This document shows positions 44,720 to 55,254 of a stretch of DNA of 64,000 nt, one piece after another. Under the pieces are notes generated by a model. It saw nothing but the letters and a program-made list of their open reading frames with translations, ran no database searches and was not told the DNA's origin. Each line of letters opens with the position of its first letter. Position 1 is the stretch's first letter. Source of the DNA: Taibaiella helva (lineage in GTDB: Bacteria > Bacteroidota > Bacteroidia > Chitinophagales > Chitinophagaceae); the NCBI RefSeq assembly GCF_003545695.1, contig NZ_QUZZ01000002.1, positions 186,001 through 250,000 on the forward strand. Reading direction: 5' to 3'. The position numbers and the translations under genes are program-made.

Positions 44720-45859
44720 TTAAACAATCCTTTCCTGCTCGCGGAACCAGCGTTCCGGTATTTCATTGTTGCCCGCGGTAAGGTAGTCGTTGTAGCTGCA
44801 GGGGATAAAGGTACCTTCGGGCAGCTGCATCCACCAGCGGTTGGTTTTCCTGCTTTTCAGGAAAAGGGTATCGTTACCCGTAAGCGCAACATTGTATTCG
44901 ATAAACTCTTCGCGGTTGCTGAGATCGGCTTCGTTCTTACGTACCAGGTAGCCATCTACGAAATACCACAGCATTTGTGCAATCAGGCGCGCGCCCTGCC
45001 TGTTGTTGTCCGATCCGGACTGGTAGCCATAGATGCCGAAGGAAGACAGGTTACTGCTCATGCCTGCGTAACGGGCCAGCTGGCAGATCTCATCGCCGAA
45101 GAAACCATTGGGCGAACCTCTCTCCAGGAAAGGAGCATCGCACAGCCGCACAGCATTCATATCGATGCTCAGCAGATCACATTGGCGCAGCACCGGTTCC
45201 ATTTCTTCCATATCTTCTCTTACCCTGCCCAGGCGAAAGCAGTCGAAGCGCAGCTTGTCCAGGGTTTCCAGCATATTCGGATTGACATAATAGCTCTGAA
45301 AGCCCATATGGCTGAAGTGCCGCACAAAATTGGGCTGTTCCGTCAGCATATCCATCAGGAAGCCTTCGTCGCTGATCCCTTCGGTCTCTCCAAGATCGAT
45401 CAGCATATCCACCACAGCGGCATTGATTGTCTTACCCAGCTTTTTGAACACATCATATTGCTGCAGGGTAAGATCATGCGATCCACCGATCACTACAGCG
45501 ATCTTTCCGGCTTCTTCTATTTCCTGGAGCACTGTACGCAGAGCAGCACGGGTGTCGCCGGGCGTTGCGCCCTCCCTGATGTTACCCATATCGGCCACCT
45601 TTACAGACGTGTGCCAGTCATACATACGGTACAGCTCTTCTCTTACAGCATCGGGACTATGGCTCCAGGGCGCATCGAGGCCGGCGCCCCTTTGCTCGCC
45701 GCAGCCGACCAGCACGATATCGGCTTCGCTCCAGTCGCTGTTGTATTCGGTAATAGGTATAATGCGTTTCCCGATCTGCAAGGCATGCCGGGCATCATTC
45801 TGGGGTAATTCAGCAAAGTGTTTTGCTGCAAAAAAAGAGTGTAGATCGCTCATGTACAT
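44720..45859 (-). CDS. Arginase/formimidoylglutamase-fold protein, incomplete metal site
   Basis: The 379-residue protein has the ureohydrolase fold, but the metal motifs are altered. The first motif keeps H128 (VVIGGSHDL). In place of DAHxD it reads D151-M-L-I-D155, lacking the central His. In place of SxDxD it reads S231-I-D233-M-N235. By comparison with arginase I, the ligands of the first Mn (H128, D151, D155, D233) are retained, while those unique to the second Mn (His and Asp) are replaced by Leu and Asn. A catalytically changed or inactive protein is likely. The gene is next to the his operon in the same direction, yet the family usually degrades rather than makes histidine. Confidence 0.82.
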   Translation of the reverse strand: MYMSDLHSFFAAKHFAELPQNDARHALQIGKRIIPITEYNSDWSEADIVLVGCGEQRGAGLDAPWSHSPDAVREELYRMYDWHTSVKVADMGNIREGATPGDTRAALRTVLQEIEEAGKIAVVIGGSHDLTLQQYDVFKKLGKTINAAVVDMLIDLGETEGISDEGFLMDMLTEQPNFVRHFSHMGFQSYYVNPNMLETLDKLRFDCFRLGRVREDMEEMEPVLRQCDLLSIDMNAVRLCDAPFLERGSPNGFFGDEICQLARYAGMSSNLSSFGIYGYQSGSDNNRQGARLIAQMLWYFVDGYLVRKNEADLSNREEFIEYNVALTGNDTLFLKSRKTNRWWMQLPEGTFIPCSYNDYLTAGNNEIPERWFREQERIV

Positions 45860-45966: not shown

Positions 45967-46557
45967 TTACTGTTTGCTGCGTGCCAGCAGGACCTGCTCA
46001 ACACGTTCCAGGTTCTGCCCTTTGGCCTGCAGCAGCAACAGGAAGTGGAACAGCAGGTCGGCGGCTTCGTTGCAGAAGCGCTTTTCATCGTCATCCTTGG
46101 CCTCGATCACCAGCTCTACTGCTTCTTCCCCTACCTTCTGCGCTATTTTGTTGATGCCTTTCCGGTACAGGCTATTGGTATAGGAATGGGGATTATCGCC
46201 GGCAATACGGTTGCCAATAGTAGCTTCAAGCTGGTAAAGGAAGCCTCTGGCATCTTCTGTACCGAAGCAGGACCGGGCGCCGGTATGGCAGGCCGGTCCC
46301 TGCGGGTCTACACGGACCAGCAAAGTGTCCTGGTCGCAATCGGTACGGATGTCCACAACATGCATGGTATTGCCTGAAGTAGCACCTTTGGTCCATAAGG
46401 TCTGCCTGCTGCGGCTGTAAAAAGTGACCTTGCCTTCTGTGCGGGTCCTTTCCAGAGCCTCGGCATTCATATAGCCGAGCATCAGCACTTCCATGCTGAG
46501 GTGGTGTTGTACGACTGCCGGTACCAACCCGCCGGCCTTGTCAAAATCGATTGTCAT
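45967..46557 (-). CDS. hisIE: Bifunctional HisIE
   Basis: The 196-residue protein fuses phosphoribosyl-AMP cyclohydrolase (residues ~1-108: [44 protein letters not shown]) and phosphoribosyl-ATP pyrophosphatase (C-terminal ~85 residues: [29 protein letters not shown]). These are steps 2 and 3 of histidine synthesis. It is the last gene of the operon. Its start overlaps the hisF stop by 4 bp. Confidence 0.96.
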
Positions 46558-47306
46558 CTTACAGGAATATTAGCGGTTTTTAAATAAGCTTTCAATTGGG
46601 GCAGGCTCAGCCGGCCGAAGTGGAAGATACCTGCCGCCAGCGCTGCTGCTGTGTCTGTTGCTTCGAAAAGCGTCTTGAAGTGCTCCTCACTGCCGGCCCC
46701 CCCGGAAGCGATTACTGGCAGCGATACAGCCTGGCTTACTTCTTGTGTTACGGCCAGGTCAAAGCCGCTGCCCGTGCCGTCCTTATTCATAGAGGTGAGT
46801 AATATTTCACCGGCACCGTAAGCTTCGGCTTGTCGCGCCCAATCTACCGTAACGAGGGGCGTGGCTTGGCGCCCGCCCTGGATGAAGACATGGTCGATAC
46901 CTTCAATCTTACGTGTATCGATCGCCACGACAACACACTGGCTGCCCAGGCGGGCGGCCAGTTCCGTGATCAGCTCCGGCCGCAGCACTGCGGCAGAATT
47001 GATGCTGATTTTATCGGCGCCCGACCGGATCAGCTGCAAAGCATCTTCCACGCTGCTGATGCCGCCACCCACGGTAAAAGGGATATCGATCGCCCGGGCT
47101 GCACGGCTCACAAGGCTGCACAGGGTCTTTCTTTTTTCTACAGTAGCCGTTATGTCAAGAAAGACGAGCTCGTCGGCGCCTTGCTCCACATATAGTTGCG
47201 CCAGGGCCACAGGGTCGCCGGCATCGCGCAACTGCTCGAAGTGTATGCCTTTAACGGTTCTGCCGTCGCGGATGTCCAGGCAGGGAATGATCCTTTTCTT
47301 CAGCAT
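46554..47306 (-). CDS. hisF: Imidazole glycerol phosphate synthase subunit HisF
   Basis: The 250-residue TIM-barrel cyclase subunit works with HisH to make IGP and AICAR. Motifs: [20 protein letters not shown] (catalytic Asp in CLDI), [29 protein letters not shown] (second catalytic Asp) and IASGGAGS. The start at 47306 is chosen from the family N terminus; it overlaps the hisA stop by 7 bases. Confidence 0.97.
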
Positions 47307-48013
47307 AGCGATTCCAGCTCTTTTAAGGTGATGTTGCCTTCGTATATAGCTTTGCCAATGATCGCGCCGCTGCAACCTGCGGCTTCAAGCGCCTGCAGCT
47401 CTTCAACCGAAGCGATGCCACCGCTGGCGACCAGGTTTATAGCAGTATGCTTCATGATATCCTGGTAGAGCTTCAGCGCCGGACCGCTCAACATACCGTC
47501 TTTGCTAATATCGGTGCAGATAGCCGTGCGGATGCCTTTTTCATAATAGGTAGAAAGGAAGCCGATGACATCCAGCTCCGTGTGCTCCAGCCAGCCCTGC
47601 GTTGCGATCCTGCGCTGCCGGCAATCAGCGCTGAGCCAGATCTTATCTGCGCCATATTGTGCCAGCCATTCCAGGAAGCGCTCCGGGTCTTGCGCAGCAA
47701 TGCTGCCGATCACCACATGTGCTGCACCGCACCCGAAGGCGGTCTGCAGGGACGCTTCTGTTTTCAGGCCACCGCTGAAATCGACTTCCAGGCAGGTATA
47801 GCGGGCGATCTGTTCCAGCACTTTATAGTTCACTGTTTCCCTGGAGCGGGCGCCGTCAAGATCGACCAGGTGCAGGCGTTTCAGGCCATGGGCTTCGAAA
47901 GATTTAGCGACTTCGAGCGGTTCGGCGGCGTATATGTTCTGCCGGGCATAGTCGCCCTGCGCAAGCCGTACGCAACGGCCGCCGAGGATGTCCATAGCAG
48001 GGATGATCGTCAT
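47300..48013 (-). CDS. hisA: ProFAR isomerase HisA
   Basis: The 237-residue TIM-barrel isomerase converts ProFAR to PRFAR. Motifs: [21 protein letters not shown] (catalytic Asp in AMDI), HLVDLDGARSRE, EVDFSGGLKT and TDISKDGMLSGP (second catalytic Asp). Its start overlaps the hisH stop by 4 bp, so expression is coupled. Confidence 0.97.
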   Translation of the reverse strand: MTIIPAMDILGGRCVRLAQGDYARQNIYAAEPLEVAKSFEAHGLKRLHLVDLDGARSRETVNYKVLEQIARYTCLEVDFSGGLKTEASLQTAFGCGAAHVVIGSIAAQDPERFLEWLAQYGADKIWLSADCRQRRIATQGWLEHTELDVIGFLSTYYEKGIRTAICTDISKDGMLSGPALKLYQDIMKHTAINLVASGGIASVEELQALEAAGCSGAIIGKAIYEGNITLKELESLC

Positions 48014-48588
48014 AAGGTCAAAAAGTTTTTAAGGATTTCAGCCCCGGTTCCCGCCGATTTCTCGGGGTGGAACTGGACTGCGTAAAAATTGTTGTGCTGC
48101 AAGGCCGCGCTGAAAGGCAGCAGGTAGTCGCTGCGAGCCACAGTATGCGCGCAGCAGGCCGCATAATAGCTATGCACGAAATAGACATCGGCGTCCGGAT
48201 CGATACCAGCGAACAAGGCGCCGGATACTTGCCGGAGGTTATTCCAGCCCATATGTGGCACCCGGCCGCCGGGAGGAAAACGCTTCACCTCCGTATTGAA
48301 GATGGCCATGCCGGACGTGTCGCCTTCTTCCGAGTAACGGCACATCAGCTGCAGGCCCAGGCAGATGCCGAGCACCGGTTGATCAAGTGCAGGCAGCAGC
48401 CGGTCGAGTCCCTTCTCTTTCAGGTAATGCATGGCGGATGCGGCCTCACCCACACCGGGGAGAATCACCTTTTCGGCCTGTTGTATCTGTGCCGGATCAT
48501 CGGTGACCCTGGCTTCATAGCCCAGCCGTTCCAGGGCATTGGTCACCGATCGGGTATTGCCGGCATTGTAGTGTACGATTGCGATCAT
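48010..48588 (-). CDS. hisH: Imidazole glycerol phosphate synthase glutaminase HisH
   Basis: The 192-residue class I glutamine amidotransferase feeds ammonia to HisF. Motifs: [11 protein letters not shown], the oxyanion/nucleophile segment [10 protein letters not shown] (catalytic Cys), and the His-x-Glu pair near the C terminus, [11 protein letters not shown]. It overlaps hisB by 4 bp. Confidence 0.97.
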
Positions 48589-49673
48589 AAACTGCCTTTT
48601 GTGCTGGGAATAAGATAAGTATCGTTGCGGTGTACAGCGGCTTTCAGCGCACGGGCAAAGGCTTTGAAGATCGCTTCTATTTTATGATGCTCATTGCTGC
48701 CTTCAGCTCTGATATTGAGGTTGCAGGCGGCATGGTCGCAGAAGGAACGAAAAAAATGACAGAACATTTCCGTAGGCAGATCGCCTATCTTTTCCCTGCG
48801 GAAATCCGCTTCCCATACCAGCCAGGGGCGGCCGCTGAAGTCGATGGCGACTTGCGCCAGGCAATCGTCCATCGGCAGCAGGAAGCCATAGCGCTCTATG
48901 CCTTTCTTGCTGCCGAGCGCTTCGCGGAAAGCGCTGCCCAGCACTATGGCCACATCTTCAGTTGTGTGATGTTCATCAACATGCAGGTCGCCGCTGGCCT
49001 GTATCTCGAGGTCGAAGCCGCCATGGCGTGCTACCTGCTCCAACATATGATCCAGGAAGCCGATGCCGGTATGCATATTGCTTTTGCCCCTGCCGTCGAG
49101 GTTAAGCGTGACCTTAATATCGGTTTCCCGCGTTTGGCGTTTCACTGTAGCGCTGCGGGGCTGCTGCTTCAGGAAGGCATAGATATCGGCCCAGGAAGAA
49201 GTGGACAGCGCCGCCCCTTCCTGCTGCGTTGCGCCCAGGTAAATGGCTTTGCAGCCCAGGTTCTCCGCCAGCTGTATATCGGTAAGCCGGTCCCCGATCA
49301 CATAAGAAGCCTCCATCTGGTAGGAGCCTTTGATGTAGTGCGTGAGCATGGCCGTGCCGGGTTTGCGGCCGGGATGTCCGTCCGTCGGGAAGGAACGGTC
49401 GATAAGGATCTCGCTGAAAACGATGCCTTCGTTTTCAAGTGCGCTGAGGATCTTGTTCTGTACAGGCCAGAAGGTTTCTTCAGGGAAAGACACTGTACCT
49501 AGTCCATCCTGGTTGCTGACCATGACCAGCTCATAGTCGAGCTCGGCAGCAATACGGGACAGGTAGCGGAAGACGCCAGGATAAAAGGTAAGCTTCTCCA
49601 GGCTGTCGACCTGGAAATCGGGCGGCTCTACAACGAGTGTGCCGTCGCGGTCGAGGAACAATACTTTTTTCAT
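48585..49673 (-). CDS. hisB: Bifunctional histidinol-phosphatase / IGP dehydratase HisB
   Basis: The 362-residue protein is a fusion. The N-terminal HAD phosphatase (residues ~1-165: [10 protein letters not shown] with D8 and D10, [17 protein letters not shown]) removes phosphate from histidinol phosphate. The C-terminal IGP dehydratase ([56 protein letters not shown]) uses Mn. The fused form is known from enterobacteria and many Bacteroidota. Confidence 0.97.
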
Positions 49674-49684
49674 TTTGCTTCTTG

Positions 49685-50722
49685 TTAAAAAGATGGAGAT
49701 AAAGCCATTTGCTGCAGGGCATCGATCAGTTGCGCGTTTTCGGATGGGCTGCCTATCGTGATCCGCAGGCAGCCGGGGATCTGGCTATGGCGGTTGCGTA
49801 CGATGAGGCCTTGCTGCACCAGCCGGGTGTATACCGCTTCCGCAGCTTCGACTTCGGCCAACAGGAAATTAGCGTCGGAAGGGTAGACCCGTTTCACTTG
49901 CGGCAACTGCAGCAAGGCTGTTTCCAGCCATCGGCGCTGTTCCAGGATGATAGCTCTGCGCTGCTCGTAAGTAACGGGATCGGATAGTGCTTCCAGGGCG
50001 GCTTCCTGGTTCAGGGTGCTGATGTTGTAAGGCGGCTTTACCTTATGGAACAAGGCAATGATCTCCGCGGAGGCATAGCCGATCCCGATCCTGGCGCCGG
50101 CCAGGCTCCAGGCCTTGCTCATGGTTTGCAGCACAATAAGATTAGGGTAGCGGTCCAGCCGTTCCAGCAGGGAGGCTTGCTCTGCGAAATCAATATAAGC
50201 TTCGTCTACCACAACGATACCGTCGAAGGTTTCCAGTACCTGCAAAAGCTCGTCCAGGCAATTGCCCGTAGGGTTATTGGGCGAGCAGAGGAAAGCCAGC
50301 TTCAGGTTTTCGTCGTTCAGCACCTCCAGGTAAGCTTGCACATCGATCTGGAAGTCTTCGCTCAGAGGTAGCCTGACCAGCGCTACATCGTTTAGCTGCG
50401 CCGATACTTCATACATGCCGTAGGTAGGCGTAAAGACAAGCGCTTTATCCTGTCCGGGGCGGCAGAAAATACGGAAGGCCAGATCGATCATTTCGTCGCT
50501 GCCGTTGCCGATGAAGATGTTGGCCGGGTTCAGCTGCCGGTAGCGGGCCAGCTGCTGTTTCAGCTGCAGCTGTCCGGGATCGGGATAGCGGTTATTATTG
50601 CCCCAGGGATTCTCATTGGCATCGAGCAGGACGCCGGCCTGTCCTTTGTATTCGGAACGGGCGCTGGTATAGGGCCGGAGGTCCAGGATGTTTTTCCTGA
50701 CCAGCTGTTGAAGGGTTCGCAT
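49685..50722 (-). CDS. hisC: Histidinol-phosphate aminotransferase HisC
   Basis: The 345-residue class II aminotransferase makes histidinol phosphate with PLP. Motifs: [42 protein letters not shown] (PLP-contact Asp), [14 protein letters not shown] (catalytic Lys) and the C-terminal [11 protein letters not shown]. The hisD stop lies 1 bp upstream of its start. Confidence 0.97.
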
Positions 50723-50723
50723 G

Positions 50724-52004
50724 TCAGAGGGAGTTTAGTCTGATGGTTACTGCTTGTTTGTGCGCATACAATTGTTCTGCTTCAGCCATAAGCGCGATGG
50801 CGGGCCCGATAAGGTCCAATCCTTCGGGGCTGATCTCCTGGAAGCTGATCTTTTTGAGAAAGCTGTCCAGGGATACGCCGCTGTAGCTGCGGGCGAAGCC
50901 GTTGGTCGGCAAAGTATGATTGGTGCCGCTGGCATAGTCGCCTGCGCTCTCGCAGCTGTAATGCCCCAGAAACACCGATCCGGCGTGGCGAATCTTGTTT
51001 GTACAGGCCGGTGCGTTGTCCATTGCCAGGATGAGGTGTTCCGGCGCATAGCAATTGCTGAAGTGGAAGCAGTCGTCAGGGTTTTTCAGCAGTATGGCTT
51101 TGCTGTGCAGCAAGGCTTGTGCGGCAATGTTTTCCCGGGGCAGCTGTTTTAGCTGTATAGTTATCTCCGAAAGCACGAGATCGATCGTGGCTTCATCATC
51201 GGAGACCAGCAGCACCTGGCTGTCGGGTCCGTGCTCGGCCTGCGATAGCAGGTCTGCGGCGACAAAAGCAGGATTGCAGGTATTGTCGGCGATAACCAGC
51301 ACTTCGCTGGGACCGGCAGGCATATCGATGGCTGTTCCGCTGAGCTGCGCCACCTGCTTGGCTGCGGTGACGTAGGCATTACCCGGCCCGAAAAGCTTAT
51401 CGACTTTCGGAACGGTTGCCGTGCCGATGGCCATAGCGCCGATGGCTTGTATGCCGCCGATACCGAAAATGCGGTCGATACCCACCAGGTTTGCCGTATA
51501 CAGGATCGCCGGGTCTATTGCTCCTTTAGCATCCGATGGTGTGCACAGCACAATGTTGGGACAGCCTGCCAGCTTTGCGGGTATGCCCAGCATCAGCACA
51601 GTAGAGAACAGCGGCGCCGATCCGCCGGGAATATACAATCCGACCGTTTCCAGTGGCCTGCTTTCCCAACGGCAGGCAATGCCGGGCATGGTAACGACAG
51701 ATAGCGGCCCGCAACGCTGGGCTTCGTGAAACCGGGTAATGTTGGCGGCGGCCAGCTGTATAGCCTGTTTCAGCGCTTCGGATAGCCGGTCGCCCGCCGC
51801 AGCGATGATGTCGGGAGCTACCGGTTGTATCGCTTGCTCTGCTTGATCATACAAGCGGCAATACGAGGCTACGGCTTCATCTCCTTGTAGGCGTATATCG
51901 GCGAAGATGCGGTTGACCAGGGGAAAGAGGTCTTCACCTCCGGCAGCAGGCCGCCGGATCAATTCTGTCCACAGATCCGAAGGTGGATGCAATATTTTCT
52001 GCAT
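50724..52004 (-). CDS. hisD: Histidinol dehydrogenase HisD
   Basis: The 426-residue enzyme oxidises histidinol to histidine in two NAD-dependent steps and uses zinc. Motifs: CRWESRPLETVGLYIPGG, FGPGNAYVTAAKQ, DMPAGPSEVLVIAD, DLLSQAEHGPDSQV (zinc ligands in the region), APEHL and the C-terminal SAGDYASGTNHTLPT. It lies 19 bp downstream of hisG. Confidence 0.97.
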   Translation of the reverse strand: MQKILHPPSDLWTELIRRPAAGGEDLFPLVNRIFADIRLQGDEAVASYCRLYDQAEQAIQPVAPDIIAAAGDRLSEALKQAIQLAAANITRFHEAQRCGPLSVVTMPGIACRWESRPLETVGLYIPGGSAPLFSTVLMLGIPAKLAGCPNIVLCTPSDAKGAIDPAILYTANLVGIDRIFGIGGIQAIGAMAIGTATVPKVDKLFGPGNAYVTAAKQVAQLSGTAIDMPAGPSEVLVIADNTCNPAFVAADLLSQAEHGPDSQVLLVSDDEATIDLVLSEITIQLKQLPRENIAAQALLHSKAILLKNPDDCFHFSNCYAPEHLILAMDNAPACTNKIRHAGSVFLGHYSCESAGDYASGTNHTLPTNGFARSYSGVSLDSFLKKISFQEISPEGLDLIGPAIALMAEAEQLYAHKQAVTIRLNSL

Positions 52005-52023
52005 GAAAATCGAGGATAAAGAT

Positions 52024-52881
52024 TTAAAGGATCATTTTTTCAATGGGCACAACGAGGATGCCTTCGGCGCCGGCCCTTTTCAGCTGCCCGGTTACCTCCC
52101 AGAACACATCTTCGCCCACAACGGAATGGATGCTGCTCCAGCCTTCGCGGGCCAGCGGTAAAATGGTGGGGCTCTTCATGCCGGGGATCAGGCTGCAGAT
52201 CTCTTCCAGCGCGGTATCCGGCGCGTTGAGGAGGATGTATTTGTGTATGACGGCATTCTGCGCGGCGCGGATGCGGAAACGCAGCTGCTCCAGCAAGGCC
52301 AGGGGTTCAGAAGCAATGCCCGGTGTGGCAATCAGCACGGCTTCGCTGCACAGCACGGTCTCTACTTCCTTAAGCCCGTTCATTAGCAAAGTGCTGCCGG
52401 TGCTAACGATATCGAAGATGCCATCGGCAAGGCCTATGCCCGGCGCTATTTCCACGCTGCCGCCGATCTCTTCGATCTCGGCTTCGATCTGCTGTTCGGC
52501 GAAGAAGCGCTGCAGGATGCGCGGGTAGCTGGTGGCCACCCTTTTGCCGTTGAAATAAGCAGGCCCGGCATAGCTTTCTTCGCGGGGAATGGCCAGCGAC
52601 AGCCGGCAGGCAGCAAAGCCCAGCTGGTCGAGCATTTCCACCTTTCGCGCTTTTTCCAGCACTTCGTTCTTTCCCAGAATGCCGATATCGGCTACACCTT
52701 GCTCTACGTATTGCGGTATATCGTCGTCGCGGAGGAAGAGCACTTCCAGGGGAAAATTGGTGGAAGCCGCTCGCAGTTTGCGGTCGCCGTTGGAGAGCCG
52801 TATACCGCAGGTGCGCAGCAGCTCTAACGATTGTTCACTCAGTCGGCCGTTCTTTTGTATGGCCAGTTTTAACATACGCAT
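52024..52881 (-). CDS. hisG: ATP phosphoribosyltransferase HisG, long form
   Basis: The 285-residue enzyme catalyses the first step of histidine synthesis and is normally feedback-inhibited by histidine. The length and a C-terminal ~75-residue ACT-like regulatory domain (ICSLIPGMKSPTILPL, WEVTGQLKRAGAEGILVVPIEKM) mark it as HisG-L, which needs no HisZ. Catalytic-domain motifs are LAIQKNGRLSEQSLELL, GVADIGILGKNEV and the PRPP-binding loop DIVSTGSTLLMNGL. It is the first structural gene after the leader attenuator. Confidence 0.97.
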   Translation of the reverse strand: MRMLKLAIQKNGRLSEQSLELLRTCGIRLSNGDRKLRAASTNFPLEVLFLRDDDIPQYVEQGVADIGILGKNEVLEKARKVEMLDQLGFAACRLSLAIPREESYAGPAYFNGKRVATSYPRILQRFFAEQQIEAEIEEIGGSVEIAPGIGLADGIFDIVSTGSTLLMNGLKEVETVLCSEAVLIATPGIASEPLALLEQLRFRIRAAQNAVIHKYILLNAPDTALEEICSLIPGMKSPTILPLAREGWSSIHSVVGEDVFWEVTGQLKRAGAEGILVVPIEKMIL

Positions 52882-52910
52882 GGAAGGAAAAATGTGCCTG
52901 GCAAACCGAG

Positions 52911-52952
52911 GGAGACAAAAAGAAAACCCGTCTGATCTGCTCAGACGGGTTT
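52911..52952 (-). terminator. his attenuator terminator
   Basis: On the minus strand AAACCCGTCTGA and TCAGACGGGTTT form a perfect 12-bp stem around a GCAGA loop, followed by TTTTCTTTTT-type tail (TCTTTTTG). It lies between the His-rich leader peptide (stop 52972-52974) and the hisG start (52881). This is the arrangement of a translation-coupled attenuator. Confidence 0.9.
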
Positions 52953-52971
52953 CAGAAAATATGGTCGTTAG

Positions 52972-53043
52972 TTACACCAAATCATTTCCACCTGGCTGAG
53001 GGCCGGTATGAAAATGATGATGATGCAATTGTGTAAAGGACAT
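52972..53043 (-). CDS. hisL: his operon leader peptide
   Basis: The 23-residue peptide reads MSFTQLHHHHFHTGPQPGGN then DLV and a TAA stop. Five of six consecutive residues (7-12) are histidine, encoded by CAT codons. It lies 90 bp upstream of hisG, followed by the strong intrinsic terminator. By analogy with proteobacterial hisL, ribosome stalling at the His run when charged tRNA-His is scarce would favour an antiterminator structure and read-through into the operon. The segment CCTCAG inside the leader could pair with CTGAG in the terminator's left arm, a possible antiterminator contact (inference). A TACTTTCG box (53064-53071, one mismatch from consensus) lies just upstream. Confidence 0.9.
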   Translation of the reverse strand: MSFTQLHHHHFHTGPQPGGNDLV

Positions 53044-53063
53044 GTTTATGCGCGTTTCAGAAG

Positions 53064-53071
53064 CGAAAGTA
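53064..53071 (-). promoter_or_regulatory. Candidate -7 box TACTTTCG of the his operon
   Basis: This has one mismatch to TAnnTTTG on the minus strand, 20 bases before the leader ATG at 53043. It is the best promoter candidate in the gap between the leader and the metalloprotease gene. Confidence 0.4.
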
Positions 53072-53130
53072 GGAAACTATTTTGATTTATCGGAAAAAAA
53101 TCCGGGATAAACAATAATTAACAGGCTTTC

Positions 53131-55254
53131 TTATTCCAGAACGAACCTGGCTTTATAAACAGAACCGCTTTCAGAGGACAGCTGCAGGTAATAGATGCCG
53201 GGGGCCTGCACTGCCGAACGGAGGTCTATGAGCAACGGCTGGTTATGTTGAAGATTCAGGTTGCGGCGGATAACGAGGGACTGGCCAAGGGTATTGAACA
53301 CTTGGTAGCTGTACGTGCCGGATATCGGTGCAATAACCGTTATCTGCCGTTCACTGGCAGGATTGGGAAATATAGCGAAGGTTGATGCCGGCGAGGGGAA
53401 TAGGGCTGTACGTACGGGGCTGTACGCGTAGCGACCGTCTCTATCCACCATTTTCAGCCGGTAATAATTAGTTGCCGCCAGGGGAAAGCGGTCCTCGAAA
53501 TAGTAAAGCGTGTGGCTTCCTTTCGCGGTTGTATGGCCAATCGTAGTAAAAGCGCTGCCATCGTTGCTTCGTTCAACCTCGTAATGGCTGAAGGCAATCT
53601 CTTCTCCCGCCTCCCATTGCAGATGTACTTGTGTCTGCACTGTCTTTGCGGTAAAGCTCTTCAGCCTGACGGGAAGAACAACCTCGTTGATGATAGCGGC
53701 AAAATCCTCGGCTTGTCCGTATTGCAAAGTGGTGCAGGGTTGCGGATTGGCGGCAACATCGGAAACGACACGGACGCGCACATAGGTGTTTTCCACTACA
53801 TAGGACTGGTTCGGCACGGTGAAGGTTCCGCTGTGCGTATAAAAGCTTTGACCTGAAGGCCCGTCGCTGGAAAATACCAGTTCTCCGGTCCCAGTAAAGA
53901 CGCCATCGTTGTTGTAGTCGATATAGACCCTCACGTTCTCCGGATTGTTACCGGCGCCCACGGATATGGCATAGCTCTGGCCTTTCTGAAAGTGGGCAGG
54001 AGCTACGGCGCTCTGCTGGCAGCTGGACAGGGTACGGTTGATATAGGAAAGATTCCCGTCATTGGTATATCCCTGGGAGAAGGATTGCAGATCACCTATT
54101 ATGATATTTCTTGGCCCTACATCGAAAGCGTTGTTGGTATTGACGACACCGGGCCCGGGACAAGCTGTAACTGCGGGTCCGGGCTGCACCGGCTGCGCTC
54201 CCGGCGCCGTAGCGCCCAGCGATTGGATCAGGCTGCTCCGCATATTGAATAACGCGAGCATTACCCTGTCGGATTGTCCCTGGGTAAAGCGGTCTGGACA
54301 GCTTGAATAGCCCATAATGTTATTGATCACCGGGACCCAGGAAGTACCCGTACAAGGGTTGTTGCCCGTAGGACAATCGAATACGGCCGCCGCCTGAGGG
54401 TCAGTGTCACAGATTTTATCGCCTGTTGTGGCGCAGTTCCCGGTAACACAGCCGCCCTCGAAGGGATGACGTAGGTTGAAAGCATGTCCCATTTCATGCG
54501 ATATCGTGGTCGCACCCGGCGCCAGCTGGCTGGCGGTAATGACCAGGCCATCCAGGCTTGCCTGGGCCGGTGGAAGGAAAGCATAACCCTGTACTCCCGA
54601 TCCGGCGCTATAGCCGTCCCAGTTATCAATCTCTGAAACGATCCATATATTATAGTAGTTGGTGTTGGGCCACCAGATAAGTCCCTTCAATGTTGCGTCC
54701 GATATGCCGCCCGTACTTTGTATATTCACACCGTTGCTGTCATAAGCAGTGCCATTGGCGCCGCCTAATGCGGTGACTCCATTGATGCGGTTGATGCCCG
54801 TAGTCGGGTTACAGGAAGAATCACGTTGGGCGAACGCAAACCGTATCCGGATATTAACGCCACCCGCACCTGCCGCCGGATGCCCTGGAAAGGTCGCCGC
54901 AAAATTCTGGTTCAGCTCTGTAATGGCATTTTGTATAGTGGCATCGCTGGGGTTGTAGATAGTGCCGATGGCGCCTCCTTTATGGATCACATGTACAACC
55001 ACCGGAATCTCGTAGAGGGTATCGTTGCCGCTGACGACTACTTTCCGGGCCGGGCTGCCAGGGCCGTGCACCTGCTGCCATAATTGTTCAAAAGCAGCCT
55101 GACGGCGGTTGAATTCAGGGTTTGTCTGCATCATTTTTTCACGTACCGCATCGGCTCCGCAAAAGGCCCGGTTTTGTCCGGCCGCCAGATGGTTATATAA
55201 AATGCATGATAAAAAAAGTAAAGAGACAGCGGCTTGTTTTGTAAATTTGCTCAT
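53131..55254 (-). CDS. Secreted M43-like metalloprotease with GEVED and T9SS type A domains
   Basis: The 707-residue protein has a signal peptide (KQAAVSLLFLSCILYNHLAAGQ). The catalytic domain contains the zincin signature HExxHxxxxxH: H253-E254-M-G-H257 and H263 in SHEMGHAFNLRH, consistent with the pappalysin (M43) family. A GEVED domain follows (VYIDYNNDGVF and YGQAEDFAAI), then an Ig-like region (LKSFTAKTVQTQVHLQWE), and the T9SS type A C-terminal domain (FAIFPNPASE at its start, then IYYLQL near the end). It would be exported by the type IX system and act on extracellular proteins. It is terminal on its strand, downstream of a 780-bp gap. Confidence 0.93.
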   Translation of the reverse strand: MSKFTKQAAVSLLFLSCILYNHLAAGQNRAFCGADAVREKMMQTNPEFNRRQAAFEQLWQQVHGPGSPARKVVVSGNDTLYEIPVVVHVIHKGGAIGTIYNPSDATIQNAITELNQNFAATFPGHPAAGAGGVNIRIRFAFAQRDSSCNPTTGINRINGVTALGGANGTAYDSNGVNIQSTGGISDATLKGLIWWPNTNYYNIWIVSEIDNWDGYSAGSGVQGYAFLPPAQASLDGLVITASQLAPGATTISHEMGHAFNLRHPFEGGCVTGNCATTGDKICDTDPQAAAVFDCPTGNNPCTGTSWVPVINNIMGYSSCPDRFTQGQSDRVMLALFNMRSSLIQSLGATAPGAQPVQPGPAVTACPGPGVVNTNNAFDVGPRNIIIGDLQSFSQGYTNDGNLSYINRTLSSCQQSAVAPAHFQKGQSYAISVGAGNNPENVRVYIDYNNDGVFTGTGELVFSSDGPSGQSFYTHSGTFTVPNQSYVVENTYVRVRVVSDVAANPQPCTTLQYGQAEDFAAIINEVVLPVRLKSFTAKTVQTQVHLQWEAGEEIAFSHYEVERSNDGSAFTTIGHTTAKGSHTLYYFEDRFPLAATNYYRLKMVDRDGRYAYSPVRTALFPSPASTFAIFPNPASERQITVIAPISGTYSYQVFNTLGQSLVIRRNLNLQHNQPLLIDLRSAVQAPGIYYLQLSSESGSVYKARFVLE

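Follow-up and report, generated by a model that had tools for sequence, protein, structure and literature searches.

The his operon and its leader region

The window, i.e., the whole stretch of 64,000 nucleotides of Taibaiella helva that we analysed, encodes the his operon on its minus strand. The initial annotation had described an eight-gene operon 3' of a short leader, and the gene calls confirm it (hisG-D-C-B-H-A-F-IE, Table 1). It had also described the leader ORF as 23 codons long, with five His in six codons, 90 bp 5' of hisG, all of which is present in the sequence: the peptide contains HHHHFH, encoded with five CAT codons on the minus strand, and the ATG of hisG (52881) follows the leader stop after 90 nt. 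We shuffled the 400 nt 5' of hisG 20,000 times, preserving dinucleotides; an ORF in which five of eight codons are His arose twice, and one with at least four His 69 times.

A perfect 12-bp terminator had been reported between the leader stop and hisG, and we recovered its 12 Watson-Crick pairs and its U-tract. It reads GAAACCCGTCTGA-gcaga-TCAGACGGGTTTT, with a 5-nt loop and an outer G-U pair, and is followed by CTTTTTG (52953-52916). The gene upstream (53131-55254) is on the same strand as the leader and ends 87 nt before it. At the other end of the operon, 3' of hisIE, a minus-strand gene (44720-45859) has a weak likeness to formimidoylglutamase (58 bits, for a cut-off of 229).

Table 1. Features of the his leader region and operon in the window, in the order of transcription of the minus strand.
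Feature	Positions	Strand	Basis or description
Candidate Bacteroidota-type -7 promoter element, TACTTTCG	53064..53071	minus	sequence, 5' of the leader ORF
Leader peptide ORF	52972..53043	minus	ATG...TAA, 23 codons and stop; peptide MSFTQLHHHHFHTGPQPGGNDLV
Predicted protector hairpin (1:2), 53028-53002 with 52996-52972	52972..53028	minus	ribosome-free nascent fold; covariation of the core helix in type A
His codons CAT CAT CAT CAT TTT CAT, proposed stall site	53008..53025	minus	sequence and codon scan
Predicted antiterminator element (2), CTCAG and next bases, pairing with 52958-52940	52985..53000	minus	stalled-ribosome fold; covariation in type A
Terminator 5' arm (3)	52941..52953	minus	terminator finder and covariation
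Terminator 3' arm (4)	52923..52935	minus	terminator finder and covariation
U-tract 3' of the terminator	52916..52922	minus	sequence
hisG	52881-52024	minus	first gene of the operon
his operon, hisG-hisD-hisC-hisB-hisH-hisA-hisF-hisIE	45967..52881	minus	gene calls and annotation

Conservation of the leader upstream of hisG

The sample comprised 228 hisG loci, taken from the window, from the 80 contigs with the most similar HisG among the matches listed, and from genomes of the window's family, in which hisG is present in 212 of 294 genomes (part of these were sampled). One locus gave no gene start, leaving 227 usable regions. ORFs were counted as His-rich when they had at least three His in eight codons and lay within 400 nt upstream of hisG. 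Such an ORF was found in 205 of the 227 regions. Once second copies were removed, it was found in 201 of 219 regions, versus four of the 219 reverse strands and 660 of 10,950 shuffles. L001 and L113, second copies of the window and of L002, are counted in the 227 regions and were left out of the 219-region set, the type-A alignment, and the duplex, shuffle and ribosome-position analyses.

A second leader finder was applied to 225 regions, after leaving out the two with less than 150 nt upstream. It identified a leader in 212, one of which (L163) is a false ORF whose true counterpart is likely at -637. Five of the 13 missed regions carry a leader further upstream. Of the rest, one is masked (N), another extends over only 150 nt, and a third has a degenerate leader with two His; in the other five we found no leader in the available upstream sequence. 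The terminator is found 3' of the leader in 208 of the 212 leaders. In T. koreensis, leader and terminator are nearly identical to those of the window. The comparison with relatives that had been suggested for these two elements therefore found them kept, both in T. koreensis and across the sample (205/227 for the ORF, 208/212 for the terminator).

In one locus (L110:894-1334) a gene of the GxxExxY family lies between the his leader and hisG, and would thus fall under the attenuator. By eye, a similar intervening gene is found in L116, L122, L158 and L163.

The motif TAnnTTYG, which we take to be the consensus of the Bacteroidota-type -7 promoter element, is present in the 60 nt 5' of the leader ORF for 193 of the 205 leaders, versus 5% of shuffles of the same 60 nt that preserve single-base content only. 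It begins 12-28 nt 5' of the start codon in 175 of the 193. This position is consistent with transcription starting shortly 5' of the leader ORF.

Two leader architectures

The leaders fall into two main architectures. In type A, a CTCAGGCG-like element 3' of the His run faces CGTCTGAG of the terminator; this architecture is found in the window, in T. koreensis, in L196 and in 70 of the 73 typed leaders of other named contigs, and the other three are similar to it. In type B, to which 126 leaders from the window's family belong, GGTAAGCC or GGTAGGCC faces GGCTTACC. Seven further leaders were set apart as type C, of which three are A-like (L059, L069 and L075, left out of alignment A1) and four B-like (included in alignment A2). 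The shuffle, duplex and ribosome-position analyses were made on the 73 type-A and 126 type-B leaders.

The types also differ in where the leader ends. In 80 of the 126 type-B leaders (alignment A2), the antiterminator arm contains the leader stop codon, so that a ribosome finishing the peptide would cover the antiterminator. In type A, the distance from the element to the stop is 9-17 nt in 63 of 73 leaders and 21 nt in three, and five values are pattern mismatches. The leader of the window extends beyond this usual position, with its stop 24 nt past the CAG of the antiterminator element, and the same holds for T. koreensis.

Alternative folds and covariation

Structure prediction, which had been proposed as a check for mutually exclusive folds, did return such folds, namely a protector, an antiterminator and the terminator. 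When the leader RNA of the window has been transcribed as far as the terminator loop and is free of ribosomes, it is predicted to adopt the protector fold (-23.5 kcal/mol), the His codons being paired with 52989-52972. This hairpin between the His codons and a segment 3' of them was missed by the initial annotation. Placing a ribosome on the second His codon makes the antiterminator, 53000-52985 with 52958-52940, the best predicted fold (-15.2). The pairing of CTCAG (53000-52996) with CTGAG (52944-52940) that had been put forward as the antiterminator is possible, but the predicted helix is longer, reaching 52985 and 52958.

We then measured covariation in alignment A1 (the 73 type-A leaders), using shuffles as a control. 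The protector has 82.1% of cells paired versus 75.5% in shuffles, with 61 two-sided changes for a shuffled mean of 23. The antiterminator has 91.3% versus 88.7%, with 15 two-sided changes for a shuffled mean of 5, confined to two pairs. The terminator has 94.1% versus 89.8%, with 26 two-sided changes for a shuffled mean of 5. Kindred sequences enter these counts many times, and the covariation of the type-A helices supports the switch, short of proof. One position of the terminator 5' arm is predicted to pair in both alternatives: column 127 of A1 changes from C to U in eight leaders, where its partner is A (seven) or G (one) in the antiterminator, and A (five) or G (three) in the terminator. 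Since all these partners are A or G, pairing is kept in both helices.

In type B, the terminator is 98.4% paired. The antiterminator (96.2% paired versus 95.3% in shuffles) is hardly above the control because its sequence scarcely varies. The putative type-B protector is poorly supported: it is 62.2% paired, for up to 54.1% in a control slid along the alignment, and two slid versions score higher in covariation.

When the duplex between the leader and the terminator 5' arm is compared with shuffles, it beats 95% of them in 61 of the 73 leaders of type A and in 84 of the 126 of type B. For the window itself, the z-score of this duplex is -0.8 and 17% of shuffles are equally good; in the stalled state, 20% of shuffled leaders pair as well. 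By these measures the predicted antiterminator of the window, considered in isolation, is weak and does not surpass shuffles.

Ribosome position and antiterminator pairing

We modelled the probability that the leader holds the terminator 5' arm as a function of ribosome position. Without a ribosome the mean probability is 0.31 in type A and 0.34 in type B. It is 0.72 in both types with a ribosome on the second His, and 0.15 in both with the ribosome at the stop and everything upstream masked. Shuffled leaders average 0.44-0.48 in predicted 5'-arm pairing. Over all leaders, ribosomes positioned 5' of the His codons leave an average of 0.52-0.59, a value that the window does not show. A codon-by-codon scan peaks within the His stretch in 64 of the 73 leaders of type A (20.5 expected from its length) and in 79 of the 126 of type B (45.8 expected).

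In the window, antiterminator pairing rises from 0.10 in free RNA to 0.46-0.60 with the ribosome on codons 7-12. Elsewhere it is 0.04-0.11 (codons 1-6), 0.40 (codon 13), 0.10-0.19 (codons 14-19) and 0.49-0.57 (codons 20-22). With the ribosome at the leader stop it is 0.27, or 0.41 with a slightly larger footprint, which means that the model does not completely prevent antiterminator release there. In the window, either the re-forming of the protector after ribosome release would do this work, or basal read-through would be higher. The completed terminator wins at equilibrium in the predicted folds, and the attenuation model therefore needs kinetics.

The second rise in the scan could have a meaning of its own. 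The leader of the window and T. koreensis might read His plus a second signal, e.g., leucine, through codons 20-22 (Asn-Asp-Leu), a reading of the modelled profile that we regard as unlikely. If it were true, termination at ample histidine would hinge on ribosome release and the protector, and not on cover by the terminating ribosome. In the genus (g1), none of the four genomes has a match to the ilvD family, an absence that hints at branched-chain amino acid auxotrophy.

Proposed mechanism and alternative explanations

That leader peptides attenuate his operons is textbook knowledge. In our view the leader of the window is, with high probability, a ribosome-mediated transcription attenuator of the his operon, as the initial annotation had proposed; the conservation of leader and terminator, the covariation and the mutually exclusive predicted folds all support this reading. 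Under it, the his genes would very probably be switched on only when histidine is scarce. We infer the translation of the leader, stalling, termination and the response to histidine as follows. Transcription would begin shortly 5' of the leader ORF. When histidine is ample, the ribosome would clear the His codons, and either the ribosome would cover the antiterminator element or the protector would sequester it. With the antiterminator blocked, the terminator would form and the RNA polymerase would halt before hisG. When charged His-tRNA is scarce, the ribosome would stall on the CAU codons and open the protector hairpin. The freed CUCAG and the bases next to it would then capture the terminator 5' arm before the 3' arm is made, allowing read-through into hisG-IE.

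The leader might instead control the translation of hisG, or its coupling by reinitiation, rather than transcription. Leader ORFs can indeed boost translation through reinitiation at short spacing, according to the accessible part of PMC4833913, but the 90 nt between the leader stop and hisG are far over the peak of 11-14 bp given there for Bacteroidetes, and the structure that alternates, present in 208 of 212 leaders, is a terminator followed by a U-tract, which makes this explanation very unlikely. The terminator might also serve the upstream gene (53131-55254), with the His-rich ORF being a chance peptide. The orientation of that gene and its end 87 nt 5' of the leader fit such a role; yet a chance peptide would not recur before hisG in 205 of 227 regions with its own promoter-like motif in 193 of 205 leaders, and a terminator of the upstream gene leaves the antiterminator covariation unexplained, so we find this scarcely credible. 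A histidine-binding riboswitch or a tRNA-sensing T-box beside an incidental His-rich ORF would likewise be a folded leader with a terminator, but deserves virtually no weight given the lack of an Rfam match and the fact that the His codons themselves are the conserved part. Rfam, which holds T-box models, gave no match at gathering score within the window, His_leader and T-box included, and no His_leader or T-box match up to an E-value of 10 on 52860-53130.

Comparison with known attenuators

The enterobacterial hisL has a run of His codons, alternative protector, antiterminator and terminator helices, and a position directly before hisG. The attenuator that we propose resembles it (Rfam His_leader) in its leader ORF of His codons, its three predicted alternative helices and its place adjoining hisG. 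It differs from hisL in having no Rfam match, in its five His in six codons and Bacteroidota-like promoter motif and, among the type-B relatives, in the leader stop lying within the antiterminator arm (80/126).

Similar systems have been proposed elsewhere. The accessible part of PMC9413887, which cites Vitreschak 2004, reports his attenuators predicted by comparison in Firmicutes (the B. cereus group, C. difficile and relatives), with 3-5 consecutive His codons, a terminator and an antiterminator before his operons. The switch predicted in the window shares this layout, on which the likeness rests, but belongs to another phylum. From what is accessible of PMC2965389 (2010), such systems were then known only from Proteobacteria and Actinobacteria, to which that study added Firmicutes. 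Within the phylum of the window, the transcriptome of Flavobacterium psychrophilum gave strong clues of leader-peptide attenuation before amino-acid biosynthesis operons (PMC9723704), whose accessible passages treat these operons in general and do not name his. Short ORFs recalling such attenuator leaders are mentioned for B. thetaiotaomicron in the accessible part of PMC7366714. In the literature that we searched, which lacks most subscription journals, we found no description of a Bacteroidota his leader and no direct experiment on one. The abstract of Vitreschak 2004 reportedly already names Bacteroidetes/Chlorobi. The kind of attenuator is thus already known, and there are published hints of cases in Bacteroidota; what we add is a new instance with a broad comparative case.

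Distribution across the phylum

An even draw across the phylum contained 128 genomes with hisG among 148. We looked at 89 loci, of which five without a BLAST match to the window's HisG were not counted. The remaining 84 hisG regions included 60 with a His-rich ORF: 31 of 31 in the window's class, 12 of 12 in family f16, 13 of 13 in family f23, and four of 28 in other families, which is near or slightly above chance (about 6% per 400 nt). The His-rich leaders of f16 (L280, L282, L338) and f23 (L286, L344, L345), which are outside the window's class, are worded very differently, e.g., VKNLRVHTAHHTHHGSHHGHHIVH. Their sequences suggest that they are perhaps independent designs.

The covariance model R1, built from the type-A leaders, had one strong match in its own genome, the his leader itself (E-value 1.1e-17). 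The next match (E-value 0.036) was directly before trpE. Over 296 genomes of the phylum, R1 had a match at an E-value of at most 0.01 in 108, and under 1e-8 in 34. Several of the weaker matches overlap a second match on the opposite strand, and these may simply be terminators.

The region before trpE (L229, G000:C32) encodes a Trp-rich leader (MASLHATANQYWWLSRWQHVNSTDMR, in the window's own genome) followed by a strong terminator, and a similar peptide is kept in two genomes of the same genus (L234, L232). To judge by these sequences, the genome probably also has a trp attenuator. Regions upstream of homoserine dehydrogenase, examined by eye, had no Thr/Ile-rich leader.

Origin and significance

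The HisG of the window and T. koreensis group with those of loci with type-A leaders. In another genome of the genus, G174, the leader is type-B-like (AAAGGGCTTATC arm) and HisG is placed among the rest of the family. In approximately unbiased (AU) tests, the grouping of window, T. koreensis and G174 HisG was rejected (p 0.0003, on 63 randomly drawn rows), but a single clade joining the HisG of the window and T. koreensis to the Chitinophagaceae sampled was not (p 0.26). Identities between the window and G174 are 61% for HisG, 57% for HisD, 58% for TrpE and 83% for homoserine dehydrogenase, and leave horizontal transfer undecided. A fourth genome of the genus, G101, had no hisG match. Horizontal replacement of the operon together with its leader in the window and T. 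koreensis seems the likelier history, because of the rejection at p 0.0003 and the change of leader type.

These bacteria mostly initiate translation without Shine-Dalgarno signals. The attenuator would imply that in them a ribosome closely trails the RNA polymerase. It predicts histidine control over the whole his operon in Bacteroidota, and our alignments supply a model of the sequence and structure of a leader without a match in Rfam. The switch would be very common in the window's class (31 of the 31 examined genomes with hisG), and is perhaps mobile with the operon.
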